A stretch of DNA of 64,000 nt from Coffea arabica (Eukaryota > Streptophyta > Magnoliopsida > Gentianales > Rubiaceae): contig NC_092312.1 of assembly GCF_036785885.1 (NCBI RefSeq), forward strand, positions 26,588,001-26,652,000. Reading direction: 5' to 3'. The notes under the pieces were generated by a model. The model had not been told where the DNA came from. It worked only from the letters and a program-made list of their open reading frames with translations, and ran no database searches. This document shows, piece after piece, positions 22,116 through 44,244 of the stretch (position 1 is its first letter; each line of letters starts with the position of its first letter). The translations under genes were made by a program, and so were the position numbers.

Positions 22116-22539
22116 TTTTCCTAGACATCTTTTTAAGAGAAAAATGACAAACTTGTATATCCAGAAAGTTACCTTTTGTAATCTATCCACTAAAACAGTC
22201 GAAATAATTCATGAAAGCCCATCTCGTATCTTGTACTCAAATAAGAAGTTATGTTGAATTTGTTGAAGCATTTCCAAATGAAAATTCATCTAATTAAAAA
22301 CGTTACCAAACAAATCGTCACATCAATTAAAAAATGACAAATGACATCATTGAAACCTATAATCATGAACGATTAAGGTTGAGGTTCGAGGAACAATTAA
22401 TAAAGATGAAAAAAAGCTAAAATGGTTCATGTAACCAAAAATAGAAAATTTACTAGGAAATAGTTCCTTTATTCCATTGAGTCAAATGAATCGATTACAA
22501 AAAACCAACAACAATGGTTTATAAAACAATATCATATTT
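22116..22539. other. Intergenic spacer left of duplication unit 1
   Basis: AT-rich sequence with no gene or bounded element. It ends at the TGATTG microhomology (22540-22545) that starts the duplicated unit. Confidence 0.5.
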
Positions 22540-22657
22540 TGATTGTTTGTATCGATATCCAGACATCATGCCCTAACACACCTTTATTACATTCCTCCCC
22601 ACTTCTCCATTTCTCAATATCTCCTTCACCCCTGAAACTAATTGTTTAGCAATTAAT

Positions 22658-22843
22658 TTAGTGCATGTAGTAGGCAAAGAAGGACACGAGGGAGGCACCG
22701 ACAACGGTTCCAACAGCGGGCAATGCAGCATAGGCACTGTTGGCTGCTGCTGGTGCAGGTGCGGGAGCCTGGCTCTCAGCCAAGACTGCGCTCATGGAGG
22801 CAGCGGCCACAAGGACTGCACAAGCGATCTTCTTCATCTCCAT
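22658..22843 (-). CDS. AGP23-like arabinogalactan peptide, copy 1
   Basis: A complete 61-residue frame beginning [20 protein letters not shown], the characteristic start of the AGP23/AGP40 group of AG-peptides. The signal peptide ends near VLA-ES. The mature peptide holds [10 protein letters not shown], with three Ala-Pro sites for hydroxyproline arabinogalactan, then [20 protein letters not shown], a GPI-anchor signal. The product would be a very small GPI-anchored proteoglycan. Family members are often pollen-expressed, though nothing here shows that. A TATAAAT motif lies 162 bases upstream of the ATG. The encoded protein is identical to that at 43891-44076. A Helitron-like insertion sits about 1.06 kb upstream of the start codon in this copy only. 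Confidence 0.9.
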
Positions 22844-23004
22844 TTTTTTTGGGCTTTTTTAAGGCAGTTGAAGGGCAAGAACCTCAAAGAATTTTGAGAA
22901 TAGTTACCCAACCTTGCCCCTTTCGGTTGAAAATAGACCTGTGCTTCTGATGCTCTTGATGCAGGATGCTCTTGCTTGGCTTTCTTCCTTCGTTAATGGA
23001 AGCC

Positions 23005-23011
23005 ATTTATA
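23005..23011 (-). promoter_or_regulatory. TATA box of AGP copy 1
   Basis: CTATAAATGG on the minus strand, about 160 bases upstream of the ATG. It is conserved in copy 2. Confidence 0.6.
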
Positions 23012-23297
23012 GGTGTGGTTTTGGACTTTGTTGGAATAAATGTGTGGTGATTTGCTGGTAAAGTAGTTGTTTCCATGAGGACAGGAGATGTTTAAGCTAC
23101 TCCCTTGAATGGTTCTTTATATAAGTGGTTTAAAAACAAGTAGGAGAAGTAGGAGGTTGTTTAGGGTATTTGTTGTTGCACCTAAACTAATTATGCTCTA
23201 TATGTACTTTTGGTATGGGATTGTTTAATATCTATAGCCTTTAATAAAAGGGAAAACCTTATTATAAACGATATATGATTTATAGGATGAATATAAA

Positions 23298-23440
23298 CTA
23301 AAAGATTATCCACTTCTTAATTACTTGTGTCTATCACATAGAGATATTTTGTTTCAAAACTAAGGATAAATTTACACTAAAAGATGATCCACTTTTTAAT
23401 TATTTGTGTCTATCACATAGAGATATCCCGTTTCAAAATT
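23298..23440. repeat. 73 bp direct repeat in AGP upstream region
   Basis: CTAAAAGATKATCCACTTYT and TGTCTATCACATAGAGATAT occur twice, about 73 bases apart. The same arrangement is in unit 2 near 44530-44680, so it predates the segmental duplication. Confidence 0.7.
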
Positions 23441-23912
23441 ACTTTTCTGTAGGTGAATTGTTTTAAAAAATAGTTAAGAAACGCAAGGCATAGGTGAAAA
23501 AAGGGTATATATTTTATGTGAGTCTAGGAGACTAGGGCATTAGAGACAAGGGATGGGATGACAATATGCTTACCTTGATGTTTTGATTTTTACTCAGCCA
23601 AGCATTTTTTTAAACAATTTTTTATTTGTAAATATGATATGCGCATCTAGATTTGACCAATTAGTGATGTCCTTTCCAATTCGTGATCTTCTAAGATGGT
23701 AAAGATCCAAAACAAAACAGAATTCCAATGTGAGTAGGGATTTAAAAATTTTTTTTTGACAGATTATCTTAAGTACTAATATTTGTCCTTTCATTTATTT
23801 ATAGGCTTCGTGCTTCCAACTTTGCATCAGCACCTCTCGTACGGTAATTTATACGTGATGACTTGTGTACGACACCACAATTTTTGAAGCTTAATGTTAT
23901 ACTAGGAGGTAT

Positions 23913-23931
23913 CACCGCGCGATGCGCGGTG
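23913..23931 (-). other. Helitron 3'-terminal hairpin
   Basis: Stem CACCGCGC / GCGCGGTG with a 3-base loop, seven bases from CTAG. GC-rich in an AT-rich surround. In Helitrons such a hairpin marks the transposition stop. Confidence 0.8.
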
Positions 23932-23997
23932 TGAGATTATATAAGTTATTTGCCTAATCATGCGGTGTGAGATTATATAAGTTATTTGCCCAATTAT
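23926..23997. repeat. 36 bp tandem duplication next to the Helitron hairpin
   Basis: GCGGTGTGAGATTATATAAG, continuing as TTATTTGCC.AAT.AT, is present twice in a row, the first copy sharing one arm of the terminal hairpin. The second copy has TGCGGTG without the full stem, so it may be a decayed second terminus. Confidence 0.85.
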
Positions 23998-26143
23998 GTC
24001 TACTAAGTTTGTATTATTTCTAAAAAAAAGAAAAATATATTATTATGGGAATCATACGAGTTAAAAGGGTGTCAATGTATAAATGCAATTTTGTGTAATA
24101 TATTAAATTAAAAAATAGTTTTGCATTAAATATTTATGGAGTTGATAGCTATGTCGCATATACACAAGCAATATCAATCCTCAATTGGTATGCGACTTGC
24201 ATTTATACGAGTGTTATAATGTACTTTGTCACCAGGGCCTTTGTATGTGCCAAAATCAACTATGAATTTAACTTTCGTATGTTATAACCAAAGCTTCACA
24301 TTTTATTATGAAAATTAAGGATGATGCTATCTAATAGTTGACAAATTTTTGAAACCAAACACTTGATAATTTGAGAAACACGTGATTCAGATTAAAATGA
24401 CAGAACTCCAATAAAAAAACAAATATGACAAAGGACTTATCAAACAAGTAAAGAGGCCAATCAATTGTTAAGCCATTGTTGCTACTCTTACTTATAGTAA
24501 AATTACTTTTCCTTTAATTGTACCTTTATCCACACAATCCTGAAAAAATTCAATTTCTTATATTTATTGGTGACAGGTTCTGGGGTCATGTTCTAAACTT
24601 AACCTTCACAAAATCCTACTTGACTAAATAAATAAAAAATATTATGAACTCGTAAACAGAAGCAAAAGTGCCAAGACAAAATGTACCAAAAATTGGGCAT
24701 AGTGAATTACATAATTGTGAATAGCTGCCCCATAAAACTAAGAATTCTAACAAGTATCTTAGTCTTAATTGCCTATGGCTCTTAGACATTCAGAAGTCTT
24801 TAAAAGAGCAGCTATGAAAACGGACAGAGAATGACTGACTAATAAGATCAAAAGTAGACTAATTATTAGCAGGAAAATTTCCCAACATCCAATAAGTCTT
24901 ATAGCAGCTGTTGCAAAATAGGCAGGTTCTGTAGAATTTCCACACTGTTCAACTCTCTAACTCTCTACTTTTGCTATAACTTCAGGCATAGAGAAAAAGA
25001 AAATGAGCTGAAGACCACAACATAAATAGAATAAAGACAATTTCAATTTACTAAACATTACTTGTGTCCTATAGATCAATGCTTGATCGTGCTAAGAAGT
25101 TTGAATTATTTTCTCATGCAATAAATTCAAGAAGTTCAGGAGGATAAGAACATCTTTTGCAGAAAAACAGAAGAGCCGATGAAAAAAAAGAGAGCAAAAA
25201 AGTAGGCATTTAAATCACTTTTGTAGAAAAATAAAAGAGGCAAAAAAAAGAGAGAGAGAAAAGAACAGCCTTTGCTTTGAGTTGATTGAAGCTCAAAAAC
25301 CACAACCAAAAGGTTCCAAATAAATTGAGTTACTTAGCTTTCAAAGGAATATTCAATATCAAAGGTTCCAATAGGTTCAAGAAAATGCAGCCAATAGTTT
25401 CAAAAAAAATTGAGTTATTTAGCTTCCAAATGAATCATCAATATCAAAACAATATAAAACCAATTCTCTTTTGTGAACAACGAAATCTATTTTCCAAATA
25501 AGAGTAATCAATAACTTTATAAAAAAGAAAGAAAAAAATAACATTACAATGAACCCGCCATGGTTTTTACTTTTTACCTTTAACTATTAAAAAGTCATAC
25601 AGAGTAAGAGAAGGAAATCAAAAGATAAAAGGAAGACAAAAAGCAAAAGATATCCAAGCTACATGTCTCTTCTTGTCCTTAAGCAAGCAAGACACCGAGC
25701 TTACGTACCTTAGAATCTTAAAGCACTCTAGTCGCTATTGCAAAAAGAGTGCCTAAGTGCGCATTCAGCCATAGCAATCCCAAGCTAAGAGAGATATCAG
25801 AATAAAGGATATTAAGATCTACTTAATGCACATAACTAAATTTGGAAGTGTTTGAAATACATCATCCACATAACTAAATTTAAGAAGAAACTACATTAAA
25901 TTACATAGCCATAACTAAGAAAATACTTAATGCACATAACTAAATTTAAGAAGAAGAAAATTACATTAAATTTTCAAAGATTGAAATATTTCAAAACAAA
26001 TTTGGTTTCCATCATTTTATAGCAATGACAAACAAGACAAATCAAAAGTCTTCAACTTCATGATAAATTCTTTCAATAATAATTAAAAGATATCTTTAGG
26101 AAGGCCCAAAAAAAGGAAAAATTTATAAAGACAGCCATATAAC
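23998..26143. other. AT-rich interior of the Helitron-like element
   Basis: Low-complexity AT-rich DNA with A-rich runs near 25190-25260. No exon with convincing splice sites and protein similarity was recognised. It may hold intron sequence from captured genes. Confidence 0.4.
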
Positions 26144-26199
26144 CTGATATGATGCAGATATTACAATATAAGCACCAGCTTCAAGGTAATCGAGGGGTA
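26144..26199 (-). pseudogene. Homocysteine S-methyltransferase exon fragment
   Basis: The minus strand encodes PLDYLEAGAYIVISASYQ followed by a GT donor. This matches the HMT family phrase around the conserved LDYLEAGA and TASYQ, part of the (beta/alpha)8 barrel that uses S-methylmethionine or AdoMet to methylate homocysteine. Only this fragment is present. Its upstream side is cut by the retrotransposon LTR end at 26200, and no following exon was found. It is a captured, non-functional fragment. Confidence 0.7.
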
Positions 26200-28938
26200 T
26201 GTGACAGCCCCACCTTCCCCTAAGGCGAACCAAAGAGGTTAGCGGATTGCCTGCCCAACTCTCGCCAGGACTAACGGTGCAGGCAAACACGATCTAAAAT
26301 GTTTCGGGAAAATAAAACGCGCTCACACAAGCCGAAATCGCAAAATAGCCAAACACAAATCAAATCGTCCGTGAATAGTGGGTGCCATGTCATATAACTC
26401 GAAAAAACATTTCCAAACCAAATAGGACACATAAACAGGGTTAAACAGTGTTAAACACATACGTTTGTAAATTTACAAAACAAAAGGGAGATAATTAAAT
26501 CAAAATACATTTAGGGTTTTGCCCAAAAGGAGCTATTCAAAATACATTCACATAAGCTCAACTTAGCAACTAACATTCATAGCCTTCCCAAAAGTATTCA
26601 AATTCCTGTAAGGAAAACAAAAGAAATAGAGTGAGCTTACGCCCAGTGAGATACTACCACTCAGGCAACGAAGTTCATATAAGTAGAGAGCATTTCATTC
26701 CAATTCACTTAATAAAAGTAAGCCAAGAGTACACATCAATAGAATGGGTAAAAGTATACAGACGGCTCTCAAGAGCCCCTTTCCTCGCTTGTATATTTGA
26801 TCGGACTTCATTGACCCTCCGTCAATGTTTACCAGGTAACCAACCGTAGGCCCCACTTTACTTCCATTCCTTCCACCCAACATACCCCTACCGGGCCCGA
26901 ACTCCATACAGTATAAATTTGGTAATACTCGAGTATACCGGAACTAAGAGTCTCATACTCAATGATTCCTTATAACAGTCCCCATGGCTCGTCAATTTTC
27001 ACGACCAAGCCCTTGCCGGCTCGATTCAATTGACCACCAATAGGGTTAAGCTCAGTGATAACAGTAAGGCCGTTGGATACTCGTCCATACGACACCAATT
27101 CAAGTATTTGCATGTATCATTCAATTTAACGGTAAACAGTCATATATAATACAAAAGGGGTGAGAGCGATCAAATACATCCTTACTTTAATCAGTTTCAA
27201 CAGTGCAAATAAGCATTCAAGGCATCAAGTTCAAATATAACAAAGCCACACAGTAACAAGCAAGTGAGTAGTACACTCACCAAGCACGCAAGTGAAATTT
27301 CATAAACCTCCGCCCAAAAAGCGTCTTTAATCACCGTCACGCCCTAAAATGTTCAAACAAGCACAATAAGACTCGATTACAAGTCATAAACCAATTCCAC
27401 ATACGACCAAAAATAAGACTCCATTAGAACGTATAAGTACTAAAGTAAGCTAGGGAAAGTCCAGAAATGAAAGTTAAGTTCTAAACCCTAAAAATAGTTT
27501 TGACATCGTTTAGCGGTTTTGGCACCACTAGCACTACGATTATCGGATGGATGTCCAATATACACAGTTTCGAAGTTAAAAGAAAGGGCTACAATGTTGA
27601 AGAAGGCCACTCAGTCCAGTTTGTAGTGCAACTAGGTCAAAAGTTCAATGTACCACACTAGAACCGCAAAAACAGGTTAGCGAACCGTATTCTGGTTAAA
27701 TAACCATAATTCAGGCTACCGAAGTCCAATTCAACTGATTCCAAAGCCATCCGAAAGCTAAGATATCAGGCTATATTTCTTAAGAAGACATCAGCAACCA
27801 AATCAGTAGCATTCCCAATCAAATTAACCAATTACCAAGGCTGATTACCAGGTTCGGACAGAAACAGGGCAGCAGGGGTATTTCAGTCTTTTCATAGGTT
27901 ACGTTGCTCCGATTGGCCTGAAATTTTGCAGGCAACTATAAAATACCATCCTATACAACTTTCATGTTTTAACCCAAGACTAATTCGGCCTCTAACTAGG
28001 AGGAACAGTACCGGGCAGAATGAGGTTAATTGAAACCCTAACTTCCGAAATTTCCTTTCAATGTGAAAATTTTCCGCAAATAGCCACAACTTACACCCTC
28101 TAGCTTCATTTTAAATCATTTCCAACCATCATCCAAGGCCACACCATAATAATCATATGAAAACAGAAAAATCATGATTAAATAGAAAAATGCACCAAAT
28201 TCTACCAAAAGTCATGAAACAACACCTAAATCCATCAATTCATCTCACATAAATCAATAATTAAGCATTATTGAGAAGAAAGAAAGGTCCCTTAGTTACT
28301 CACCTTAACAACCCAAGAAAAAGAGCAACTTGGCACCTTAATCCTCCAAACCACTTCCCTAATCACCTTACAACCACTCACTTAAGGGTTTTTATGGTGC
28401 AAATACAAGATTAAACGGTTGGAATTGAAGATTGAACAAGATTGGAGACTAGAAAATTGAGAGCTTTTCCTTTCTTTTTCCTTGAAGAGGGCCGGCCACA
28501 ATAGCTTGAAATGAAGAGGATTTTTGACCAATTTTTGGTTTATTTAGTAAAATGGTAAAAGGGTGAATAGTGGTCAAAAAGTAAGATTTAATCTCTAAGT
28601 GACACTTGTCACTTTCATTAAATGCATGGCTATCTCTTATTCCTCTCACACCCATCCACTTGGTAACCTCTAATTATCTCATAACACCCGATAAATTAAA
28701 CCCAATATCCAAAACTTAACCTAACGAGCCGAATTTTTTCGAACTTTTCGCACTAGCCGATATAACCTAACGGGCCGAACGTCCGGTATACGCTCTTAAT
28801 TTCTCAAAAACTAACCGATACTAGAAAAATCATCTAAAAACTATATTTACTCATAAAAATTATCCAGAAAATTTTTCTAATAAAGAAAATGCAGAAAAAC
28901 ATGCCATTAAATAGAATAAAACCTAGAAAATGAGAAAA
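26200..28938 (-). repeat. 3' LTR of the chromovirus
   Basis: The terminal 1306 bp (26200-27505) repeat at 33733-35038. On the minus strand the LTR ends GGGGCTGTCACA. The remainder to about 28938 has no second copy in the window and directly follows the truncated pol frame. The exact U3 start is uncertain. Confidence 0.7.
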
Positions 28939-31761
28939 TTACGTCTGAGGGTGATAGGTCGTGCTCAAGCGGAGTTTCGTCCCCAGAGTTTCTTGAAATT
29001 TCTGCCAAAACCTAGATACAAACCGGGGATCTCTATCGGAGACGATACTCACAGGAACACCATGTAACTTCACAATCTCGTCCATGTACATCTGAGCTAA
29101 CTTGTCCATGGAATACTTCATTTTTACCGGTAAGAAATGGGCCGACTTGGTTAATCGATCGACGATCACCCAAACGGTATCGTGTCCTCGTTGCGTTCGC
29201 GGCAAACCTGAAACGAAGTCCATGGTGATGTTTTCCCACTTCCACTTGGGTATCTCCAGGGGCTGTAACAAGCCCGATGGTTTTTGATGTTTCGCGTTAA
29301 CCTGTTGGCAAACGAGATATTTTTGCACGTACAGAGCAATTTTCTTTTTCATATTATCCCACCAATAGACTCCTTTTAGGTCCTGATACATCTTGCTACT
29401 ACCCGGATGGATTGTATATTTGGATCGATGAGCCTCCTCTAAGATCTCTGTTTTCAACGCTTCATCTTTCGGCACCACTATTCGGTTCCGGTATTTTAAA
29501 ATACATTCGGGATTGAAGTTGAAGTCAGTAGATTCTCCCTTTTCCACCTTCTCCCCCCATTTTCGCACCATCGGATCCCCCTTTTGAGCTTCTTTAATCC
29601 GCTCCAATAGGGTAGAGGTTACCCTAATATTATCGAAAACCACATTATGACTCCCAAAACAGGGTTTCCACTCGCAGACGGATTCCAACAAATCCCACTC
29701 TTTAATCATCAACCCTGCTGCCTGAGCCTTGCGACTTAGGGCATCGGCCACTACGTTCGCCTTTCCCGAATGGTAGTTAATGGTGCAGTTGTAATCCTCT
29801 AAAAATTCTATCCACCGTCGCTGCCTCATATTCAGTTCCTTTTGGGAGAAAAGGTACCTAAGGCTCTTGTGGTCCGAGTAAACCTCAAAGGTCACCCCAT
29901 ATAGGTAGTGTCTCCACTTTTTCAGCGCGAAAACAATGGCGGCTAGCTCTAGATCGTGCGTCGGGTAATTCTGATCGTGGAGTTTCAACTTCTTAGAGGC
30001 AAAAGAGATCACATTACGGTTCTGCATTAAAACGCATCCCAGACCTTCTCGCAACACATCAGTATACACTGTAAATCCGTCTACTCCGTTAGGCAAGACT
30101 AGAACTGGAGCCATGGTCAATCTTTTCTTTAACTCTTGAAAACTTGTCTCACATTGAGCATTCCATACGAACTGACCATGTTTCTTTGTCAGGTCAGTTA
30201 AAGGACCTGCTAATTTGGAGAAGTCTTTTATGAAACGTTGGTAATACCCAGCCAGCTCTAGAAAACTGCGGATCTCTGTGGGGTTTTCTGGTCTCTTCCA
30301 ATTGGTCACAGCCTCTACTTTCGCCGGGTCAACCGAGATGCCTTCTTGGGAGATTACGTGCCCTAGAAAGGAAATTTTCTCCAACCAGAACTCGTACTTG
30401 CTGAACTTAGCGTACAATTGATGTTCCCTCATGGTTTGCAGGACGGTTCTCAAGTGCTGCTCGTGCTCCTCACGCATCTTGGAATAGACCAGAATGTCGT
30501 CGATGAAGACCACGAAAAATCGATCCAAGTAGGGCTTGAAAACCCTATGCATTAAGTCCATGAAGGCGGTAGGAGCATTAGTTAGTCCGAAGGGCATAAC
30601 CGCGAACTCATAATGCCCGTATCTCGAATTGAAAGCGGTTTTCGGGATATCCTCCTTCCTGATTAACAACTGGTAATACCCCTTGCGGAGGTCCAATTTC
30701 GAGAAGACCACCGCTCCTTGTAGCTGGTCGAACAACTCGTCAATATGGGGCAGTGGGTACTTATTCTTAACCGCGACGTTGTTCAGGCCCCGATAATCAA
30801 TACACATCCTCAAACTACCGTCTTTTTTCTTCACAAATAGGACAGGAGCTCCCCAAGGAGACACACTCTCGTGAATGAACCCCCGCTCCAGAAGGTCTTG
30901 TAATTGCAATTTTAGCTCCTTGAGCTCCGCAGGGGCTATTCGGTATGGGATTTTTGAGATATGTGAGGTTCCCGGTAGCAGGTCAATTTTAAATTCTATA
31001 TCTCTCTCCGGAGGCAAGGATACTAACTCATTGGGAAACACATCCGGGTATTTCCTCACTATGGGTACGTCCTTTACCTTCAACTTATCCGTGGGGGTGT
31101 TGATTAAAAAGGCTAAAAATTCTCGCGCCCCTCGATTTAATAGTTTCCTAACCCGAATGCCCGAGATTAGGGAAGATGAGGCTAACCTTCCTCTTATATC
31201 TAACCTTAGGGTCGCCTTCCCCAGAATGCGAAACTCCACCACCTTCGTTTTGCAGTCTAGTTGGGTATTATACCTAGCTAGTTAGTCTATGCCCAGAATC
31301 ACATCATACCCCTTGATGGACAGGCTAATTAAGTCCCCTAACAACCTCCTCTCTCCTACCCAAACCTCACAATCCCTATAAACCAGACTAGTAACCAAAC
31401 GATGATCCCCCGTAGGTGTACTAACTTCTAGGTCGTAAGGTAAACTAGCAGGTTTTATGTCAATGCCACACATAAAATCAGGATTAACAAAGGAATGGGT
31501 GACACCAGGATCTACTAAAACTTTGGCAAAGCGGTGAAATACAGGGATCGTACCTTTTATGACCTCAGAGGAATTTGGGACCTGCTGGGGCTCTAACGAG
31601 TACACGCGAGCCGCGACCTTAGGTTTCGCCCCATCTCCCTTAGCTGGTTCCACATTGGTCTTTGGCGCTGGTTGGCCCCCCTTTCCGTCTTGCTTTAGGA
31701 CTGGGCAGGTGGCAAGCCGGTGGTCTGCACTTCCGCAGCGCAGACATTTCCCTTCTTTCTT
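28939..31761 (-). pseudogene. Gypsy protease-reverse transcriptase-RNase H-integrase, broken
   Basis: One frame, continuous with gag, broken by an in-frame TAA at 31282-31284. A second CCHC knuckle (CLRCGSADHRLATC) comes first. The protease active site, usually DSG, reads DPG. Reverse transcriptase is intact around [10 protein letters not shown], with [20 protein letters not shown] upstream. RNase H follows ([15 protein letters not shown] to the DHKSLRYL region). The integrase HHCC finger has lost its first Cys (YLVC). The core shows the first two catalytic Asp ([20 protein letters not shown]), but the frame stops right after YHPQT, before the third acidic residue. The C-terminal domain and chromodomain are therefore absent. 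The element is not autonomous. Confidence 0.9.
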
Positions 31762-32772
31762 TCAACAATTGTCCTCGGAGTGGTTTGGCTTTCTGCAGTA
31801 CCCACAAGGCCCACGGGACGCCGAACCTGAACCCTTCTGGAAGTTTTCGCCTTGGCCTCTCCCGACTGGGCCACCCCTGGACTGAGCCCCTTTGCCGAAC
31901 CCCGTCTGTCGTCCACCTCCAGCTTCTCGTCCGAACTTGGAGGGGGTACTCTTCTTCCCCTGTCCTGAACTGCTCCCAGGAAAATCTCGCTTTTTTGCCT
32001 GGAAGTTCCGGACTTGCAACCTAGCACTCTCTACCTGTTGGGCCTTTTCCACGGCCTCGCTAAAAGCATTAATTTGAGCCACTGCGAGGTCCTTCTGGAT
32101 TTCGACATTCAAGCCCTGGATAAAACGCCTGATCCGCCGTTGCTCGGTCATAATCAGCTCAGGAGCAAACTTAGATATGCGGGTGAACTGGCTCTCGTAC
32201 TCCGCTACCGACTGGGCCCCTTGATGAAATCGGATAAACTCATTTTCCTTCCTCTCCTGAACTAGAGGAGGGAAGAATTTTGCGTTGAATTCTCTCATAA
32301 AATTTACCCAAGTCCTGGGTGTTTGTTGCCGTTCCCATTTTTGCCGAATAACGTTCCACCAGGAACGGGCCTCCCCTTTCAGCTGGAAGACGGCAAAAGT
32401 TACCTGCCGTTCTTCGGTATAGTGCAGGACAGCGAAAATGTCTACCATTTTCTCGAACCACCTTTCGACGACATCCGGGTCGGGCCCCCCAATGAATTTC
32501 GGTGGGGCGAACTTCTGAAATCTCTCAACTGCCCTGTCGTCGCTTTCGACGTGGTTACCAGGGTTCTCAGGATTAAGGTTCGGGTTTTGGCCCTGTTGCT
32601 GCACCACTTGTGCTAGCAGATTGGTCATTTGCTGCATAGCGGCAGCTATTTGCGCGTTGGGATCAACCCTCGGTTCAGGATTAGGTCCAGATGAGATTTC
32701 CCCAGTACCTCGGTCAGACGTAGGTTGCCTACTCCCACGCCCATGTCCCCGTCCACTACGTGTGCCTTCCAT
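31762..32772 (-). CDS. Gypsy gag polyprotein
   Basis: A 336-residue frame starting MEGTRSGRGHGRGSRQ, with an Arg/Gly-rich N-terminus. The retrotransposon gag domain runs from about residue 90 to 220 (ERWFEKMVDIFAVL, EARSWWNVIRQKW, EFNAKFFPP). A first CCHC knuckle (CGYCRKPNHSEDNC) lies at the end. The frame closes with TGA at 31762-31764, where related proteins usually have Trp, so this is a nonsense change that separates gag from pol. The group specificity is that of Tekay/Del chromoviruses, by recollection of the gag wording. Confidence 0.85.
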   Translation of the reverse strand: MEGTRSGRGHGRGSRQPTSDRGTGEISSGPNPEPRVDPNAQIAAAMQQMTNLLAQVVQQQGQNPNLNPENPGNHVESDDRAVERFQKFAPPKFIGGPDPDVVERWFEKMVDIFAVLHYTEERQVTFAVFQLKGEARSWWNVIRQKWERQQTPRTWVNFMREFNAKFFPPLVQERKENEFIRFHQGAQSVAEYESQFTRISKFAPELIMTEQRRIRRFIQGLNVEIQKDLAVAQINAFSEAVEKAQQVESARLQVRNFQAKKRDFPGSSSGQGKKSTPSKFGREAGGGRQTGFGKGAQSRGGPVGRGQGENFQKGSGSASRGPCGYCRKPNHSEDNC

Positions 32773-33094
32773 GAAATCTATTTGATCTAGGCAAACGTAC
32801 TAGAACAATAAAATAACAATGCATGTAAGTAAAATCCCAAAAGCTGTTACAATAACATATATATACATTCCAAACGAAATCAAACAACGCACATATCAAC
32901 AACCAGTCAAGTCAAGTACAGTCAAGTCAAGTACAAATATAGACAATCCATAAGGGAATGGCCTCATCAAAATAATAACACATAGCTAATCCAACGTACA
33001 AAACGGCTAGCTAAGGCTCTTTTCCAGGTCTATCCATCCCTATCCGTCCTATATACAATAATCAAAACCTCCACAAGATCTCCAAGAGTACGAC

Positions 33095-33562
33095 CTAGTC
33101 CGTCGTCGGGCTAGTGGACCCACCCGATAGGGTGGATTCACCTCCTGCCCCGACCCCTGTGCACGACGCCTCGTCGCTCTCCTCCTCGAGCGCGTCGTCG
33201 CAGAGGTTCAGGATCGACTCGGCTCGAATCTTAACTTTCCGAGCTCGCTTAGTCTCATGCTCACGTGCCTCCCTAAGTTGAGCGCAAATGTCGTCCACTC
33301 TATCTTCATATTCGATCACATCGTACTCTAAATTCTTAATTCGCTTGGCTTGTTTCTCGTTGGCCGCCCTTAACTGATTCATCTCGGCCTCGAGCCTAGT
33401 ATTATCTTTCGCCAACTCCTTCCGTTTCTCTGCCACGGCCAACACTAAGGGGTTAGGGTAGGCGTAGGTGTGGCGACACTCGCAACGACGAAGGCGACTC
33501 GCCGGACTCCAATGCACAACGGCCCCTCTTAGCCGGATCTGGTACTTAATCACCGGAAGCAC
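33095..33562 (-). CDS. Extra ORF upstream of gag, coiled-coil
   Basis: A 155-residue open frame in the untranslated leader between the PBS and gag. The middle is a strong coiled coil (VAEKRKELAKDNTRLEAEMN, then QLRAANEKQAKRIKNLEY). The C-terminus is acidic then Ser/Thr/Gly-rich. Standard Tekay elements have gag as the first frame, so this is additional. The codon pattern and heptads suggest it is or was translated. Its function is unknown; a nucleocapsid or RNA-related accessory is speculation. Confidence 0.6.
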   Translation of the reverse strand: MLPVIKYQIRLRGAVVHWSPASRLRRCECRHTYAYPNPLVLAVAEKRKELAKDNTRLEAEMNQLRAANEKQAKRIKNLEYDVIEYEDRVDDICAQLREAREHETKRARKVKIRAESILNLCDDALEEESDEASCTGVGAGGESTLSGGSTSPTTD

Positions 33563-33717
33563 CCCATGCGGTCACTCCCCAGCAGGGCTACCACTAGGCC
33601 CACTATGTCCGTCCATCCTACACCAAAGAGTAAATAAACGTAAATAACCTTAAGGGACATAATCAAAATAATCCTCAAATCGAACAGTTCTAATACATCC
33701 AAGCCAATTCAAACCTA

Positions 33718-33730
33718 GGCTCTGATACCA
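33718..33730 (-). promoter_or_regulatory. Primer-binding site for initiator tRNA-Met
   Basis: On the minus strand TGGTATCAGAGC follows the LTR end (CTGTCACA) after two bases. It is complementary to the 3' end of plant initiator tRNA-Met and is the usual primer site of chromoviruses. It fixes both the orientation and the LTR's 3' border. Confidence 0.9.
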
Positions 33731-33732
33731 CC

Positions 33733-35038
33733 TGTGACAGCCCCACCTTCCCCTAAGGCGAACCAAAGAGGTTAGCGGACTGCCTGCCCAACTCTCGCCA
33801 GGACTAACGGTGCAGGCAAACACGATCTAAAATGTTTCGGGAAAATAAAACGCGCTCACACAAGCCGAAATCGCAAAATAGCCAAACACAAATCAAATCG
33901 TCCGTGAATAGTGGGTGCCATGTCATATAACTCGAAAAAACATTTCCAAACCAAATAGGACACATAAACAGGGTTAAACAGTGTTAAACACATACGTTTG
34001 TAAATTTACAAAACAAAAGGGAGATAATTAAATCAAAATACATTTAGGGTTTTGCCCAAAAGGAGCTATTCAAAATACATTCACATAAGCTCAACTTAGC
34101 AACTAACATTCATAGCCTTCCCAAAAGTATTCAAATTCCTGTAAGGAAAACAAAAGAAATAGAGTGAGCTTACGCCCAGTGAGATACTACCACTCAGGCA
34201 ACGAAGTTCATATAAGTAGAGAGCATTTCATTCCAATTCACTTAATAAAAGTAAGCCAAGAGTCCACATCAATAGAATGGGTAAAAGTATACAGACGGCT
34301 CTCAAGAGCCCCTTTCCTCGCTTGTATATTTGATCGGACTTCATTGACCCTCCGTCAATGTTTACCAGGTAACCAACCGTAGGCCCCACTTTACTTCTAT
34401 TCCTTCCACCCAACATACCCCTACCGGGCCCGAACTCCATACAGTATAAATTTGGTAATACTCGAGTATACCGGAACCAAGAGTCTCATACTCAATGATT
34501 CCTTATAACAGTCCCCATGGCTCGTCAATTTTCACGACCAAGCCCTTGCCGGCTCGATTCAATTGACCACCAATAGGGTTAAGCTCAGTGATAACAGTAA
34601 GGCCGTTGGATACTCGTCCATACGACACCAATTCAAGTATTTGCATGTATCATTCAATTTCACGGTAAACAGTCATATATAATACAAAAGGGGTGAGAGC
34701 GATCAAGTACACCCTCACTTTAATCAGTTTCAACAGTGCAAATAAGCATTCAAGGCATCAAGTTCAGATATAACAAAGCCACACAGTAACAAGCAAGTGA
34801 GTAGTACACTCACCAAGCACGCAAGTGAAATTTCATAAACCTCCGCCCAAAAAGCGTCTTTAATCACCGTCACGCTCTAAAATGTTCAAACAAGCACAAT
34901 AAGACTCGATTACAAGTCATAAACCAATTCCACATACGACCAAAAATAAGACTCCATTAGAACGTATAAGTACTAAAGTAAGCTAGGGAAAGTCCAGAAA
35001 TGAAAGTTAAGTTCTAAACCCTAAAAATAGTTTTGACA
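33733..35038 (-). repeat. 5' LTR of the chromovirus, apparently truncated
   Basis: 1306 bp matching 26200-27505 with about ten substitutions. Similarity stops at 35038, where a PDI-like exon begins within five bases. The block happens to start TGTCAAAACT on the minus strand, mimicking a TG terminus. Confidence 0.8.
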
Positions 35039-35042
35039 TTAC

Positions 35043-35354
35043 CTTCTCCACTGTTCACAAACTTAGCAAGGCATCTGCAGATCGTGCACCTTCATACCTG
35101 AAAATAAAAATAAATTCATGAGGAATACAATTGTATGAACTCAAGGCATGGAAATTATATTTACATAGAGTCAACATCAGGATAGATATCATTTCAACAT
35201 AGCAAGTAAAAAACACAAAGACCCTTTGAAAACTTCAATATTTCACATATACTCACTTTTTGGGCTCCAAAGAACCTTTTGGAAGCCATTGGACGGTCGG
35301 GTAACCAGAAACACCATATTTGCTGCAAAGGCTCTTATGCTCATTGTAGTCCAC
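35043..35354 (-). pseudogene. Protein disulfide isomerase-like 2 fragment (two exons)
   Basis: The minus-strand exon 35257-35354 encodes [20 protein letters not shown], then [13 protein letters not shown], with good AG and GTGAGT borders. The exon 35043-35097 continues with KYEGARSADAL. Together they match the end of the first thioredoxin domain of plant PDIL2 (ERp38-type), including the cis-Pro segment GYPT. After ADAL the reading frame is shifted by one base; the expected FVNS appears in the next frame. The CGHC active-site exon and the second domain are missing. It is a captured, inactive fragment cut by the chromovirus LTR. Confidence 0.8.
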
Positions 35355-36135
35355 CTACAACAGATATAATTTGATAAAAGTTCAGAACCTAAACTTATTT
35401 TTGTTACAATTCACAGCTAAAACATTGATTAATCTTTTAAGTATTGAAATTAAATGAGATGCAAAATAGAAGATTCACAACAGCTAAGAGAGTTAAACTG
35501 ATGTTGATGCCAACAAGCAACCAAGTAGCAATGGATCTCAGGTTCCATTTTCTCAAGATTTTAGTGATGGAATAAAATAGAGCATATCCAGTTTGCAAGG
35601 ATGAAAAGAAAAATGTAAGCACTTTTTTAACGTGAAATAACCATATAGGTTGTCTGAGAGAGTTTTGCCATAGCATCTTGCTCTATATTAATGAAACTTC
35701 CAAGGATGACAACTCCTAAAGTGATCAGAAAAAATAAAAAGATAGATGATTCATAAAATGGCAAAACCCTTAATAATGTACAACTCCAAAATTCATTAAA
35801 ACAAACCACCACAATAGCATGGCAAAAGCCATGAATATTGCATCATATCTGAGCTCTCTACAGCAATGCAATAGTAACATTTCCAGAAGTTACAAGCTTT
35901 AGAGTAAAAATGAGACTTTAGCTAAACTACTTAATAACCCATGGGAAATGTTCTAATTGATATAGCAACACTATGAACCTAGAGAAAAAATGAGATTTTT
36001 CCACCATATTTGAAAGGGTCAATGGATCATAAAAGAGCTGAAGAGCTAACCTTTCCGATCAAAATAGATAACCCATAGCAAACATTAGTATCCGAGAAAT
36101 AAAACAAACAACCAGAAGAAGACCTTTTTGAATAC
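35355..36135. other. Intron-like spacer inside the Helitron
   Basis: AT-rich sequence between captured exons. No exon recognised. Confidence 0.4.
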
Positions 36136-36273
36136 CTGTACAGGTGCCAGCTTAGGTGGAAGCATTAAGCCAGTATCATCCCCATGAGTCATGATAATAC
36201 CTCCAACAAATCGCGTACAAATAGCCCATGATGTCTGCCACACATGTTGCCACTGTCCATTTTCATCCGTAAA
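36136..36273 (-). pseudogene. Prolyl-tRNA synthetase exon fragment
   Basis: One 46-codon exon with AG and GT borders. It encodes [20 protein letters not shown] followed by [20 protein letters not shown] and KLAPVQ. This is the class II synthetase segment of eukaryote-type ProRS that includes motif 3 (GDDxGLxLPP) of the ATP-binding site. It is open and well preserved, but no neighbouring ProRS exon was found within the element, so it is a captured piece. Confidence 0.8.
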
Positions 36274-37355
36274 CTAAACAAGCAGACAGACTATTTAGGG
36301 AATTGCACATTTCATATTTCAAATACCAAAGTTGAAGAAATGATTCTAACCAGATTCCTATATGAAGAAATGAAAACTAAAAACCAAAGTTGAAAGTAGA
36401 AGACTGTCATTCAGAAGGATTGACGTGTTTCCTTTGACATTGAAATTTTATCAATCACTTCAGATGAAGATTGAACAAGTAAACCATTGAGATTCAATTG
36501 GTAAATTGACCTAAAATAACACTGGATAACCAGGGCAAGAAAGGAATATACCCTGACTTAGTTTAAATGCTGCATTTTCTAGAATCACGTAACAGCAACT
36601 ATATCAGTGTATACTTTTGACTTTTTTCTTTCAGTTTCGCTATAAAAAAAAGCCTTAACCATCTTCTGACTTCTCCCTTAGTGGTGTTGGCAAAGAGGTA
36701 GCAAGAAGAAATATGTTAGTCTTCTAATGAATTTAGACAACATGGATGGATTTGTTCTGCGCACAACATTCATATAGTGCACAATGGCATTTGAAGAATT
36801 AAAATGGAGATTCCGCACAGGAACAAGATTGTTTTGCAGTTTTGCTCTCCAATTCTGCATCAAACACTACTTCCGAAATGGAGTTGTTTTATGCATCTGA
36901 TGCTAAAGGTTAAGCTATTCCAATAGTCCAATGAACTTTATGAAATTAAGAATCTCAAACCTGATAGTTCCTTTAAATGGAAGCCATACTATCTACTCAA
37001 CATCTATGATCTTTCATTAGAAACAATTATTTTGATTAGTAAAGATTTCTTTTTGACGATAAACCCTTGGAGTTGTATAACAACAGTTAATTTTTTAAAT
37101 AACATACCATTTAGTTCATGCAAAAATCTGCTCTTTGTCAACAATTGGATGTCATAACAACACTAGCATTACCAGAACTTATTTATCACAAAATAGAAAT
37201 AACAAGTCAAGACTGCAAAGAACCAATATTTTCAATTAGAACAAGAGGAAAGAAAAAACTACATAAAATATACTGAAAAATTATATTGAGAAAGTCAAAC
37301 CGCTAATAGAAGATCAAGAAACAGCAATAAAGAAATGACAAACATAAAAACCTAC
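36274..37355. other. Intron-like spacer inside the Helitron
   Basis: AT-rich, no recognised exon. Possibly intron sequence carried along with the captured exons. Confidence 0.35.
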
Positions 37356-37610
37356 GTTTTGAACAGAGCATAAAAAATGCTCTGAGCTCTGACCTTCAGC
37401 TGTAACACTAATCCCAAATCTTTCAGCCTCCATCTCAGCTTGCCTAAAAAATGCTACTTATAAAATCAACCGCAATAATCACAAAATAGTCCAAATCCAC
37501 AACTTGGTCAGAAATTTTTTAAAAAAATTAATTCGAAATACCTGATAGCAGAATCTTCTGTGGCTTGAAAATTATTAAGATCAATAAAACATTTCTTCAG
37601 ATCAAGAGGT
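37356..37610 (-). pseudogene. Two captured exons of an unidentified gene
   Basis: Minus-strand exons 37542-37610 and 37356-37443 join in phase across a GT-AG intron. They encode LDLKKCFIDLNNFQATEDSA, then IRQAEMEAERFGISVTAEG. The frame, the compatible splice phase and the charged helical content suggest a real coding origin. I do not recognise the gene. Confidence 0.45.
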
Positions 37611-38750
37611 CTTCACCTTGACCCAAAAAATTAAACTCTCTTATGTGATTGGCTTTCAATACCCTAATATTCCTCTTTGGCCCTGACCCTAAATTTATTC
37701 CTTCTTGTATTCTTCAAATCCAAAGCTAAAGAATTTCAAAACCCACAAGGAAAATTACCAATTCATAATAAATACTGTAAATGCATGTGAAAATACTGAA
37801 AAGAAAAAATGAAACTGTTTAAGGGAAAATCTTGAAAAACAGAAGGAGAAGGATATGAAGAACAAGTATGTTGGATGAGCAGTCAAAGTTCAAGACTTGG
37901 ATGAATGGTCTTGATGGAGAGTATGCATCCTACTGCGAAATCTTCATTACTGTTATAAGCTTCCATGGATTTAGGTTTTTCTTCTTTTTGGCTTGTATTT
38001 CACCTGATTTGAGTTTTTTGTAATGGACCATCAGTTTCTGAAGAGAAGAGACAGAAGAGAGGAAAAAAATGGGGGGAGAGAATGTGCGGAAGCTCAAAAG
38101 ATAAGACTAAAGCCATCGACCAAAAGAAAAATCGTGTGGTTTCGAAAAGGGCAAAGAGCAAAAAAAAAAAGGAAAAGAAAATAAAGGACAAAAAAGATAG
38201 ACCACAATCGATGCTCTGCAAAGGTACAACCACTCCCCTCAGCTCACCTGCTCTCTGACAACAGAGGAAGAAGGAAGAAACGAAGGGGAATAGAAGAGAA
38301 GAATTGAAGATGAAGTGAAGGCGACCAAACTCGCCACCAATCTCCCAGTGAGGACGTCTGGAACTGAAATGGGTAGACTTGGTGGAGCAGTTGCTCGTTT
38401 CAATAGAACTGCAGAGGCTGAACTCCTGGCTAAGCAGACTGGATGTGACAAAACATTACATTACCAACACACCCCTCAAAGAACAAAAGAACTCACAAAT
38501 ACAACAAAAGGTCGGGATGTAAATAGCTGCAGACCAAAGGGCTAAAACCATAATATCAACAAACCTCCCAGCCCAACAAAGAGAAGAAGACAAGACATTA
38601 CGATTTACGAAACAACCGCGTGACTGTTTGACCAGGAACCGGGCCACCACATCAACAAACGGAAGGAAAGGCTAAGGGAAAAAAGTTAGCACCAATCACG
38701 TCGTTCCACATCATCAAGAAGCCAATGCCCTCTTGCCATGCGGAGGACGA
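37611..38750. other. 5' part of the Helitron-like element
   Basis: From about 38220 the composition becomes purine-rich and less AT-rich, with open frames of 64-76 codons on both strands (38239-38451, 38315-38545). None has a recognised motif. This may be a captured promoter or first exon. Confidence 0.35.
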
Positions 38751-38782
38751 CCACGTCCGACGTGGATACCGGGCGTCCGCCC
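38751..38782. repeat. Paired GC-rich palindromes near the Helitron 5' end
   Basis: CCACGTCCGACGTGG (38751-38765) and GGGCGTCCGCCC (38771-38782) lie 17-48 bases from the left (5') terminus of the minus-strand element. They are unusual in this AT-rich region and could form two adjacent hairpins. Confidence 0.7.
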
Positions 38783-39695
38783 TTAGTCTATATGTTTAAT
38801 AAAGAGAGAGCAATTGAAACCTTAATTAAAAAATATAGTGCAATTATCCAATAAATATTATAGAAGGTATTCATACTCTATTTTGCACGAAAATGTGCTA
38901 ATACATACACGGGAAATCGTGTACACTTTAGGATGTAATTTATTATATTTTTTTGTCATAAAAAGCTAAAAATTGTAGCCTTTTTTTTTTTTATTGAATT
39001 AGCCTCAAAAGAAAAGAAGGACTTTGATCTTCTATACTGATATCAGAAAACATTAATTACAAAATTTTCCATCAAATATACTTCAAAAATATGGCGCCTC
39101 TCCTGTTTCAGTTTCACGATCAATATATACCTCCCCTTCTGTTTCAATAAATATCTCCCCTTCTGTTTCAACATAATTTAATGATCAATTATATACCTTA
39201 CCTTCTGTTTCAATTTCATGATCAATATATGCCTCCCTCTATCTAGAATGATTTGGATGGATTTTAAATTCTTTATTAAATTCTTCAATTCAAATAACTA
39301 GAATGATTTGGGTGAATAATAGATTTTTAAAGAATTTGAGTTAGGGTTCACGCCGGTAGAGGTGTGCAAAGTCGAAAAATTTCGATTTACCGACCAATTT
39401 CGAATTAAATTCAGAATTTTGAATTCGATAATTTTGAATGGAATTCATTAATTCTGATTTCAAATTGGTCGAAATCGGGACGAATTCGAAAATATAATTT
39501 CGATTTCATTTTATAATATTCATATATATAATATAATATTTTTTAACAATAAAGTACTACTAATCGGAATAAAAAAAGAATAGATAAGGCTCGCAAAGGT
39601 TACTTAAAGTCCAATTGAAGGAAGACGGCTCGGGCAATTCTAGAATCAACTCCGCAGTCTTCAGAATCCGGAGATTTCATTCGAGCCAAAATCAG

Positions 39696-40151
39696 ATGGC
39701 TTCTTCCCTGATAGCCTCTCAGACCTTAATCCTCCGAAAACCAACCGTTATTTCTCCGAACAACCTCACCGCTGCCTATCCTCTGCGGCTTTCCTTCTCC
39801 CTAGCAAACCCTAAAAGGCCAGCAATACTTACCGCTTCCTCGTCGACCCTCCTCAATAACTCATATGCCAAAAGCTCTGGTTACTAGAACCCCGCTCTAT
39901 CTTTGCTCACCAGTTCAGCTCGGACGGTGACTACACTGTTGGCTCTAGCTCTAACGGCCTCCAAGGGTTCTCAATTTGGGCCTGCAATTGAAGGGCTTTC
40001 ATGGCCTACCGGAGCCTTTAGTCCGCTCCGCCGACCCGGTTTTTTCGACGCAATTGGGGATGCAGCCACTGGAACTTTGAACACCGTTCACCGTGGTTGC
40101 AGCCGGGATGGCAAAATGGCTAGATATATACAGCGGGGTTTTGATGGTTAG
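39696..40151 (+). pseudogene. Captured gene fragment with plastid-transit-like N-terminus
   Basis: The ATG at 39696 starts MASSLIASQTLILRKPTVIS, a Ser/Thr/Arg-rich, acid-poor N-terminus of chloroplast transit type, running to SSGY. A TAG at 39885-39887 interrupts, and the same frame then continues for about 88 codons (LLTSSARTVTTLLALALTAS, GPAIEGLSWPTGAFSPL, FFDAIGDAATGTLNT). The codon use and higher GC content differ sharply from the AT-rich element around it, so it was captured from a host gene. I do not recognise the parent. The in-frame stop suggests it is not functional. Confidence 0.6.
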
Positions 40152-40242
40152 GGTTTTGCTGAGCTGGTTCCCCAATATACCTTGGGAAAACAGGCTTTTG
40201 AATTCGGTGAATTCGAAATTCACCGAAATTCGGAATCGAATT

Positions 40243-42148
40243 TGATAAGTGACTAATTTACGTAATAATTGAATAACATTTTATGTTATTTTTAGTCACT
40301 TTGGTTATATGATTGGAAGAAAATGAATAATTTTGGCTATAATTGGGGAAAAATGTCTTAAGTGATTTAATGAGATTTTTATCACTTTTTACTTGCATTT
40401 TGTGCATTTTTGATAGCTTTGACACATTTTAGTATTTCGGCTATAACTTGAGTTACAGTGATCGGATTGAGATGATTCTTAAACCAATTTGAAGATAAGA
40501 AATAGATCTGCAACTTTGTTAAAGACATCAAAATCCAGTTTGAAGGTTTTCCAGGTCAAAAATCCAAAAGTAGCCAATTTCTATTGGTCAAAACTGAAAC
40601 AGGGCAGTGAGCAGTCAAGGGTATTTTAGTCATTTCTCAGCCTACACAAATCCAAATGAGGTGATTCTTCATGCATTGAAAAGTTAAACTCAAAGAATTA
40701 CAAGTTTTATGTTTTGGTCAAGAGTTAAATCAGTTTCTATCATCAAGAAAAGTTTAGTTGAAGTTGAAGCAAAATTGGAGCAGAGATGGAAATTGAACAG
40801 AAATTGCACAAAAAGGTCACTATATCTATCCGGCCGGAACTTGGACCGATTTATGGCCAGATTTATGGCCGGATTGTGGTTAGAAAAGGCTGCTCTTTAT
40901 GCGGACAACTTGATTTCACCTCCAATAAAGTCACATGTAATGCTAGACATGTGGCAAACACTTTGCAGCTGTAAAAGGGAGGTGTAAACCTCATTCCTTG
41001 ACCATCTTTTACCTTTATATAGCCAAAAACTTGCAAGATTCAGGAAGATCATACGGGAGAAAGTTTGGAGTCTGCAGAAATGTAGCTCTTCCATTTTCTG
41101 AGTGTTAGATTAGTTTAGTATAGAGTAGTAGTTCATCCATCTTGTTTATTAGCTAGAGGAAGAGGAGGTTGGAGGATGAAAATGGCAAGGAGATGAACTC
41201 ATGTGATAAGGGTTACATTTCTTTCCAACTCTTTATCTTTTTTACTTAATTCCAAGTTTGGTTAATATACAAGTTTGGATTTTATGTTATTTATGTGTTT
41301 CTAAAGTTATGCCTTGGGTTTGGTTGAACTTCCTATGATTGTTAGTGTTTATTATTTGGCTATTTGATTGCTATGATTTGAGCAAGTTATTTAGCACTTT
41401 AGCTCTTTAAAATCATGATTAATCTGGTACCATTGATTGTGATTATCTAAGGTGTTGTTTCTGCAATGAAAATTGAGATTTAACACTAGTTCAAGAAATG
41501 CTAAACATAGGGAGTACACTCACGAGAGTAGAGGTACACCTATGTAGTTTTAGTGATTCATTTCATGTAATTTCACAGAAGAAATGAACTTGTAGCTAAT
41601 TTTATAACCATGAGAATAGGTTTGGATTGGTTATGAGTATAATTTATTCACTATGAAAGTAGGATTCATATGCATAAGGAAATTACACCATAGCTAACCA
41701 AGATAGTAGTTTCCAATGATCCAAAAATAGCACTTGCATAAGTAGTTAGGGATATAGCTAATTTTATAACCATGAGAATAGGTTTGGATTGGTTATGAGT
41801 ATAATTTATTCACTATGAAAGTAGGATTCATATGCATAAGGAAATTACACCATAGCTAACCAAGATAGTAGTTTCCAATGATCCAAAAATAGCACTTGCA
41901 TAAGTAGTTAGGGATACCATAATCTAAGGAGCTTTCATTTGTTATTTTGCATAAGTTCAGTAGGATTCATTTCTTATAATTCATTGATAGTCTAAATAAT
42001 AGAGAAGTTTTAGTAGTGCTGGTAATTGTTCAATCTTCATCGTGGGATCGACCCGATATATACCCTAAACTACTAATTTGACTTGTATACTTGCAGTCAA
42101 ATGGGTGTAAATCGGATTTTAACTTGCACATATATCAAAACCCCGTCA
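40243..42148 (+). mobile_element. Solo LTR, 1.9 kb, nested in the hAT
   Basis: Starts TGATAAGTGACTAATTTACG, ends AAAACCCCGTCA, flanked by the exact 5-bp duplication GAATT (40238-40242 and 42149-42153). It belongs to the same family as 56910-58834: both contain TATTTCGGCTATA followed by TGATCGGAT, a GTTAATATACAAGTTT phrase and a TAATCT-type end. No coding frame. An exact 162-bp tandem duplication lies inside. Confidence 0.9.
41593..41916. repeat. Exact 162 bp tandem duplication inside the solo LTR
   Basis: 41593-41754 and 41755-41916 read identically by eye. The related LTR at 56910-58834 has one copy, so the duplication is private to this insertion and recent. Confidence 0.9.
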
Positions 42149-42583
42149 GAATTCGAAATCGGAACTGGCCATTTCGAATTTGAAATCGGTCAGAAAAATC
42201 CATGTCAAATTTTCGAGAAATTCCGATTTCAAACTTCCGATTTACCGATTTCGAATTCGATGCACACTCCTACACGCCGGAGTAAAATTAAGGAGAATCA
42301 GGAAAGCATGGCTTTACTGATAGAGAACAAAATTAGAACTTGAGTATTAATTATTTAATTACACAAAAGCCTGTGACTAGAGTTAATTATTAGTTTGGAA
42401 GAAGATAATAATGGGTGAGTATGTATTCTCAATTACCTTACCAATCTCAGGATGTATTGAATAAAAAGAATATTGCATATACTAGCTGTTGAGTTGACAA
42501 TATTGCCCAACAACAACTTGAAACCCACTTGATTGTGTGTTAATTTTTCTTTCTGACCTAGTGATCAACAATGAACTAAGGAA

Positions 42584-43474: not shown

Positions 43475-43890
43475 GCTAAAGAATCATTTTCATGAAATAG
43501 ACACATGAACAAATGGATAAATAAACTTAAGTGGAAGTTCTTAAAATTAACTTCTGTAGAACGGTTTCAATTGTTTATATTGAATTTGTCTTGTTTGAGT
43601 TTTTCGTTGATGTACCTTTTTAAGATGTAAAAATGGTGCACATTTCAGTCCCCCAAATTCTTATACGATAAATAGTCCTTGGAAGAACTGTTGCTTCATC
43701 TCCTTGTTTCACTATTCAAAGCAATGTCAAATCCTACCAAAATGTTCTAATTAGATTAGGGTATATCATTAGCTGATTGTTTGTATCGATATCCAGATAT
43801 CATGCCCTAACACACCTTTATTACATTCCTACCCACTTCTCCATTTCTCAATATCTCCTTCGCCCCTGAAACTAATTGTTTACAATTAAT

Positions 43891-44076
43891 TTAGTGCATG
43901 TAGTAGGCAAAGAAGGACACGAGGGAGGCACCGACAACGGTTCCAACGGCGGGCAATGCAGCATAGGCACTGTTGGCTGCTGCTGGTGCAGGTGCGGGTG
44001 CCTGGCTCTCAGCCAAGACTGCGCTCATAGAGGCAGCGGCCACAAGGACTGCACAAGCGATCTTCTTCATCTCCAT
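43891..44076 (-). CDS. AGP23-like arabinogalactan peptide, copy 2
   Basis: Encodes the same 61 residues as 22658-22843; the few nucleotide changes in the coding region are silent (for example GCGGGAGCC to GCGGGTGCC). It has a signal peptide, an APAPAP glycomodule and a GPI-anchor signal. The TATA box and about 1 kb of upstream sequence are also shared. Here the upstream neighbour is the compact B' block instead of the Helitron-like insertion. Both copies therefore look intact and potentially expressed, with different distal upstream DNA. Confidence 0.9.
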
Positions 44077-44237: not shown

Positions 44238-44244
44238 ATTTATA
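44238..44244 (-). promoter_or_regulatory. TATA box of AGP copy 2
   Basis: TATAAAT on the minus strand, at the same distance from the ATG as in copy 1. Confidence 0.6.

Follow-up and report, generated by a model that had tools for sequence, protein, structure and literature searches.

What kind of element enters a tandem repeat of Coffea arabica without duplicating its target, carries pieces of several genes, and begins with TT, when a 5'-TC is the defining feature of canonical Helitrons? The question is raised by positions 23902-38799 of a 64,000-nucleotide stretch of DNA (the window), which is C3:26588001-26652000 (NC_092312.1) in the genome that we searched (1.198 Gb, 131 contigs). A preliminary description of the window, made from its letters alone, had presented the block as a single non-autonomous Helitron that gathered host exons. 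We conclude with high confidence that the block is a non-autonomous Helitron-type element of about 6.06 kb without its insert, lying between host A and T, that it belongs to a multi-copy TT-ended family with a 3' hairpin and CTAG, and that it carries gene pieces and was later entered by a Ty3-type long terminal repeat (LTR) retrotransposon.

Boundaries and 3' end of the insertion

The insertion, 14,898 bp long, divides host unit 1 (22529-23901 and 38800-39356), as seen from an alignment of this unit with its tandem partner, unit 2 (43763-45671). With the insert removed the two units are 98.3% alike, with 33 differences over 1,905 aligned sites, and a repeated segment neighbouring them is more diverged (53 differences in 1,500). 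Unit 2 runs uninterrupted through the insertion point, reading TGTTATA|TAAAGAG, and there is no target duplication; the element lies between A and T, as a canonical Helitron (Helitron1) does. A genome search with 22529-23901 gave seven matches. Five are units 1 and 2 and three full-length units from contig C4; the other two are partial (69 bp each), and we left them out of the count of empty sites. The three C4 units read TGTTATATAAAGAG, so that the site is empty, at the same base, in all four of the other full-length units, bearing out the exact empty site that had been described.

On the minus strand the element ends with a hairpin (CACCGCGC-ATC-GCGCGGTG), seven bases and CTAG, with a host T next; a GC-rich hairpin followed by CTRR is the canonical Helitron 3' end. 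Stems of at least 8 bp and at least 60% GC before CTRRT occurred at a mean of 0.03 per window in 60 Markov-generated windows, and the real window has one, at 23902, which confirms the earlier reading of this end. Across the genome the 3' pattern had 85 matches, compared to none for a reversed control; every one of them has T after CTAG, and they represent 73 distinct flanks. The pattern was a narrow one, requiring CCTCCTAG plus T nine bases on, and it samples part of the 3' ends. A search for the 3' end in viral contigs gave no matches. The insertion and its ends comprise the following features.

23902..38799, minus strand: whole insertion, Helitron-type element plus nested LTR retrotransposon (exact empty site in unit 2 and three C4 units)
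38781..38799, minus strand: 5' terminus TTAAACATATAGACTAAGG, non-canonical TT (junction reading, genome family matches)
23902..26028, minus strand: 3' body of the Helitron (multi-copy, 94-96% to C19)
23962..23990, minus strand: subterminal 29-bp repeat, first copy, a pseudo-3' end (sequence repeat)
23926..23954, minus strand: subterminal 29-bp repeat, second copy (sequence repeat)
23913..23931, minus strand: 3' hairpin, 8-bp stem (3'-end reading, Markov control)
23902..23905, minus strand: CTAG 3' terminus, host T after (3'-end reading, genome pattern matches)

A multi-copy family with a TT 5' end

The 5' end of the element reads A|TTAAACATATAG. The TT had been called unusual, and it does depart from the TC rule, but it is not private to this copy. 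We searched the genome with the 19-bp end, allowing C or T at the second base and A or C at the fifth, and found 88 matches (60 exact and 28 with one mismatch) versus 3 for the reversed pattern. TT begins 55 of the 60 exact matches and TC the other 5; the one-mismatch matches comprise 16 with TT, 11 with TC and 1 with AT. With ten flanking bases included and one mismatch allowed anywhere, 66 matches reduce to 59 distinct flank-and-end classes, 54 of them TT and 5 TC. The TT end is common to dozens of copies across a multi-copy family, with the consensus TTAA(A/C)CATATAGACTAAGG. Our first guess, made after reading CTAG|TCAACC at loci L032 and L033, was that TT is a private mutation, and the 55 exact TT matches rule it out. 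The preliminary description had also drawn attention to two GC palindromes at this end: GGGCG-GA-CGCCC, a perfect one, is missing from all four of the other TT copies that we read, and CCACGTCGGACGTGG is present in three of them.

In the host sequence in front of the 54 distinct TT flanks' elements the base at -1 is A in 46, T in 7 and G in 1, position -2 is C or T in 49, and position -3 is T in 51. These counts point to what is probably a Helitron lineage with a working TT 5' end and a T-pyrimidine-A|T target preference, present in dozens of copies, some of which carry gene pieces, and for which a 5'-TC would be unneeded for mobilisation.

A second element is independent proof of the TT boundary. 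A copy on C14 begins CTTA|TTAACCATATAG, and the homologous empty site on C13 reads CTTA|TTGGATC; at its other flank (C14:13564032-13564332) the element ends CACCGCGCAAAGCTTTGCGCGGTG-TTGCCAC-CTAG|TTGG. By comparison with the C13 site, this element of about 3,609 bp runs from TT to CTAG and lies between A and T with no duplication. Its CCACCTAG end cannot match the narrow 3' pattern. No shift of the boundary can yield TC in either of the two empty-site cases, the window or C14/C13. We also considered a true 5' end three bases further out, with TYA as part of the element, and rejected it because TTA is host sequence in the empty sites of the window, as is CTTA in C13.

In a few places an element end is joined head to tail to another: CTAG is followed directly by TCAACCATATAG on C3 and C4 (L032 near 1373, L033 near 1453) and by TTAACCATATAG at C16:1278067, as expected from rolling-circle concatemers or read-through.

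Captured gene fragments and a nested retrotransposon

Read 5' to 3' on the minus strand, the cargo consists of an LSM12-like piece, a prolyl-tRNA synthetase (ProRS) piece, a PDI-like piece that we take to be of PDIL2 type, and a homocysteine S-methyltransferase (HMT) piece, the last two separated by the retrotransposon.

36340..38036, minus strand: LSM12-like fragment that begins ahead of the start codon, extends to the third exon and has frame breaks; exons at about 37966-37848, 37704-37542 and 37443-37355 (weak Pfam matches; contiguous homology on C21 and C22)
36078..36330, minus strand: ProRS fragment, exon about 36273-36136 (phmmer 9.6e-12; common to C19 and C17)
35040..36069, minus strand: PDI-like fragment, two exons and a frame break (Pfam Thioredoxin 1.8e-8; contiguous homology on C2 and C4)
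26200..35039, minus strand: Ty3-type LTR retrotransposon, no target duplication, replacing about 480 bp of the sister copies (LTRs, Pfam, comparison with C19)
33733..35039, minus strand: 5' LTR (LTR alignment)
31762..32799, minus strand: gag reading frame (Pfam Retrotrans_gag 6.9e-23)
31282..31761, minus strand: protease reading frame (Pfam RVP_2 7.1e-21)
28939..31281, minus strand: reverse transcriptase (RT), RNase H and integrase reading frame (Pfam RVT_1 2.7e-34, RT_RNaseH, Integrase_H2C2)
26200..27506, minus strand: 3' LTR (LTR alignment, 10 differences in 1,307 bp)
26029..26199, minus strand: HMT fragment, whose exon 26199-26145 is truncated at the edge of the LTR (Pfam 0.038; at least nine similar places in the genome)

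The preliminary description had named HMT, PDIL2 and ProRS exons and left one exon pair without a name. The ProRS and PDI identities stand on the matches given above, although the isolated ProRS exon hit no synthetase domain in Pfam. The HMT exon alone is weak (profile positions 40-56), but at C10 it is continued by sequence matching profile positions 57-90 (0.27). The unnamed pair is LSM12-like: its peptide matches the Pfam families LSM12_LSM (0.0038) and AD (0.032, or 0.07 in a longer query) in the expected order, below their curated cut-offs. The splice sites that had been claimed are visible for most exons; the first LSM12-like exon is without a clear donor, and the HMT exon is truncated at the acceptor side. 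Because of their frame breaks the LSM12-like and PDI pieces are pseudogene fragments, and the retention of introns suggests that capture took place at the DNA level. In the literature we found no paper linking a Helitron with prolyl-tRNA synthetase.

Several unrelated genes are represented in this one element, as in Pack-Helitrons, and mapping the fragments across the genome, as had been proposed, placed the homologues of HMT, PDI and LSM12 mostly on separate contigs. Only the best candidates were scored, so the numbers of matches are lower bounds: HMT-type sequences occur in at least nine places, 84-88% alike (C5, C6, C8, C10, C11, C12 twice and C19 twice), PDI-type sequences covering most of 35040-36069 in at least six besides the sister copies (C2, C3, C4 twice, C7 and C16, plus shorter ones), and LSM12-type sequences in at least about 20, the longest outside recognised elements being on C21 and C22. 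Collinearity of the captured exons at one locus, which had been named as evidence against a single Helitron, holds for two of the four genes: PDI and HMT pieces lie in the same order on C10 and C12, with related DNA between them. On C10 the HMT stretch is longer, and a CLU-family piece (eIF3_p135 1.1e-5) is also present. We read this arrangement as another chimeric element with a common PDI-HMT unit, and these two pieces may have been acquired jointly. The C10 locus with its CLU, PDI and HMT pieces starts with a stretch (L052 near 3995, minus strand) similar to one at L050 (152), where a 3' end with hairpin and CTAG abuts TTATCAACATAAGTAGAT; this is perhaps a different Helitron-like family.

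Both ends of the element occur together elsewhere, with the same order of cargo. The sister copy on C19 (L024, C19:9015000-9024500) runs from a 5' end at 397 to CTAG|T at 7949, carries the LSM12-ProRS-PDI-HMT series, and is 94-98% alike over six main aligned blocks; its flanks and those of the C3 copy differ where read. It is without the LTR element; its PDI piece and HMT exon are separated by 479 bp of native DNA that are missing from the window copy. Additional cargo in the C19 copy is a piece of GAPDH (Gp_dh_N 5.3e-16) and one more PDI exon (0.00036). The window copy keeps an LSM12-side stretch (36340-37008) that C19 does not have, and C19 keeps the GAPDH piece; because each retains a stretch that the other is without, neither is a simple deletion of the other. 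A third copy, on C17 (L025), agrees over the shared part, has no LTR element there, and ends without the hairpin.

The claim that the whole 14.9-kb block is one Helitron is ruled out by the LTRs and pol reading frames within it. The retrotransposon makes up 8,840 of the 14,898 bp (about 60%), leaving 6,058 bp of Helitron, to which the well-supported part of the claim, a Helitron-type insertion carrying gene fragments, applies. It has the two LTRs (99.2% identical), gag, protease, RT, RNase H and integrase of a Ty3-type element, but not the 4-6 bp target duplication; its three reading frames are consecutive in one frame, with stop codons between them. An extra frame of 158 amino acids (33095-33571) lies between the 5' LTR and gag; it looks coiled-coil-like by its letters and had 11 weak Pfam matches, none above cut-off. 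The PDI and HMT pieces terminate at the LTR edges. We rejected a reading of the first LTR bases as PDI coding sequence because C19 continues as GGTAATGTTATTGG, unlike the LTR.

Because the C19 and C17 copies are without the LTR element and C19 has the 479 bp, the retrotransposon arrived after the Helitron, with a loss of about 480 bp. The LTR divergence (0.0077) is lower than that of the host units (0.0175). Somewhat short of an even chance, in our estimate, is that the LTR element is the recombination product of two like elements, one inside the PDI piece and the other close to the HMT piece, with the intervening DNA removed. This would account for the missing target duplication and the missing 479 bp, and an excerpt of PMC7251063 includes 'intact elements without TSDs' among the products of unequal recombination. 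It requires, however, two insertions in the same orientation about 480 bp apart, and a single insertion with a target deletion is equally simple.

Two further observations concern the surroundings. Unit 1 contains a second insertion not present in unit 2, a hAT-like element of 2,916 bp (39357-42272). Its target duplication is 8 bp long (CACGCCGG), its inverted ends are short and imperfect (TAGAGGTGTGCA and TGCACACTCCTA), and it contains an exact 162-bp tandem duplication (41593-41916). Nine reading frames in the flanks matched no Pfam family at 0.001, and Rfam and tRNA scans gave no matches.

Mobilisation, alternatives and significance

Pairs of listed 5' and 3' ends on the same strand, in 5'-to-3' order and within 25 kb, involve 4 of the 88 5' ends (in the window and on C19, C9 and C21), whereas none is on opposite strands and one is in the wrong order. 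At 8 loci an LSM12-type sequence (21 were chosen from 54 matches) follows a same-strand 5' end by no more than 8 kb, versus none in either control. A search for RepHel, in which the best 150 of 763 candidates were scored, found it upstream of a listed 3' end at 3 loci (about 8 kb away, with a limit of 15 kb) and 4.4 kb downstream of a TT 5' end at one (on C4), versus none in the controls for position; the control genomes gave no RepHel. The Helitron part of the window contains no RepHel in its minus-strand frames, the strand scanned. When 30 of 58 sequences resembling the 3' body were chosen and compared with the 88 5' ends over 40 kb, 6 pairs ran the same way and 1 had the 3'-body piece upstream; a further 8 pairs (C1, C4 twice, C16 three times, C17 and C22) have such a piece downstream in antisense, at 10-32 kb, which suggests longer relatives. 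On C8, three RepHel matches of equal score and frame length are spaced 16.9 kb apart (523936, 540862 and 557788), perhaps a tandem array of coding elements.

We propose that a RepHel enzyme from related coding elements would nick at the 5' end, and that rolling-circle copying would proceed through the captured DNA and stop at the 3' hairpin. The gene pieces (LSM12-like, ProRS, PDI and HMT, with GAPDH in the sister) may have been collected over several rounds and shared between elements, before a Ty3-type retrotransposon entered the DNA between the PDI and HMT pieces, with the loss of about 480 bp. The series of LSM12, GAPDH, ProRS, PDI and HMT pieces across the sisters and the repeated 29-bp subterminal stretch fit stepwise capture.

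Known systems, cited here from excerpts of their papers, agree with most of this. Maize gene-capturing Helitrons share the hairpin and CTAG, the A|T target, several gene fragments, stepwise capture and pseudo-3' ends, but they belong to another plant genome and have 5'-TC where TT predominates here (PMC3288121). Gene capture by Helitrons is common in maize and scarce in Arabidopsis and rice (PMC2575219). In the bat element Helraiser / Helibat1 the 5' end is essential and the 3' hairpin is a stop signal whose bypass transduces flanking DNA; the A|T target, CTAG and head-to-tail junctions are also alike, whereas the reported junctions have 5'-TC (PMC4778049). The active Xuan-Feng Helitrons of wheat are likewise plant elements with an AT target, CTAG, a hairpin and transposase-less members beside coding ones, but with a canonical TC start (PMC13286980). 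The FoHeli elements of Fusarium also depart from canonical ends, but they are of Helitron2 type, with asymmetric terminal inverted repeats and other 3' ends and target (PMC5148889).

We think it improbable that TT is a decayed TC, with copies that moved as TC and each later mutated from C to T. TC forms do exist among both the exact and the one-mismatch matches, and C-to-T is a common mutation in plants. However, the 54 distinct TT flanks, against 5 with TC, would need repeated change at one base while the other 17 stayed nearly unchanged, and the two forms look like inherited subfamilies: the AAGG-ending form is mostly TT and the AAGT-ending form mostly TC (6 TC, 1 TT). It is very unlikely that DNA repair or segmental duplication, with no transposition, produced the block as a copy of part of a chimeric locus: repair can copy chimeric DNA without a target duplication, and PDI and HMT pieces do occur together at C10 and C12, but both ends are found again beside many unrelated flanks, with an A|T preference, and the C14 element obeys the same junction rule with partly different content.

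Several points weigh against a Helitron-type origin as we describe it. The window element has TT where a canonical Helitron has TC, and because 5'-TC was tested and not found we file the element as a Helitron-type variant rather than a canonical Helitron. Eight of the 54 distinct TT flanks, including that of the C19 sister (T), have no A at -1; just 4 of the 88 listed 5' ends have a partner among the 3' ends that the narrow 3' pattern listed; and the RepHel beside the TT end on C4 has an open frame of just 410 amino acids, too little to establish an intact TT-ended coding element. In the cargo, the LSM12 and HMT identities rest on weak domain scores, PDB searches found no LSM12 with the LSM12-like peptide and no match with the HMT exon, and the ProRS parent gene was not among the best-scored genome candidates, which included only the C19 and C17 sisters. 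As to the timing of the retrotransposon, gene conversion can lower LTR divergence (an excerpt of PMC7251063).

Plant Helitrons that capture genes are already known, as are nested retrotransposons, and the uncommon part is the TT-ended multi-copy family with its T-Y-A|T target. Titles and abstract openings on non-TC ends reported no TT-ended Helitron family, a partial view that does not establish its absence from print. The locus preserves a clean layered history, from tandem host units to Helitron insertion to retrotransposon nesting, and its sister copies show captured gene pieces being shared, extended and lost between elements. Annotation that requires TC would miss a TT-ended family, and such a family offers a way to test what the first bases contribute to 5' cleavage. 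If our reading is true, Helitrons can be mobilised without the 5'-TC that all of them are held to share.

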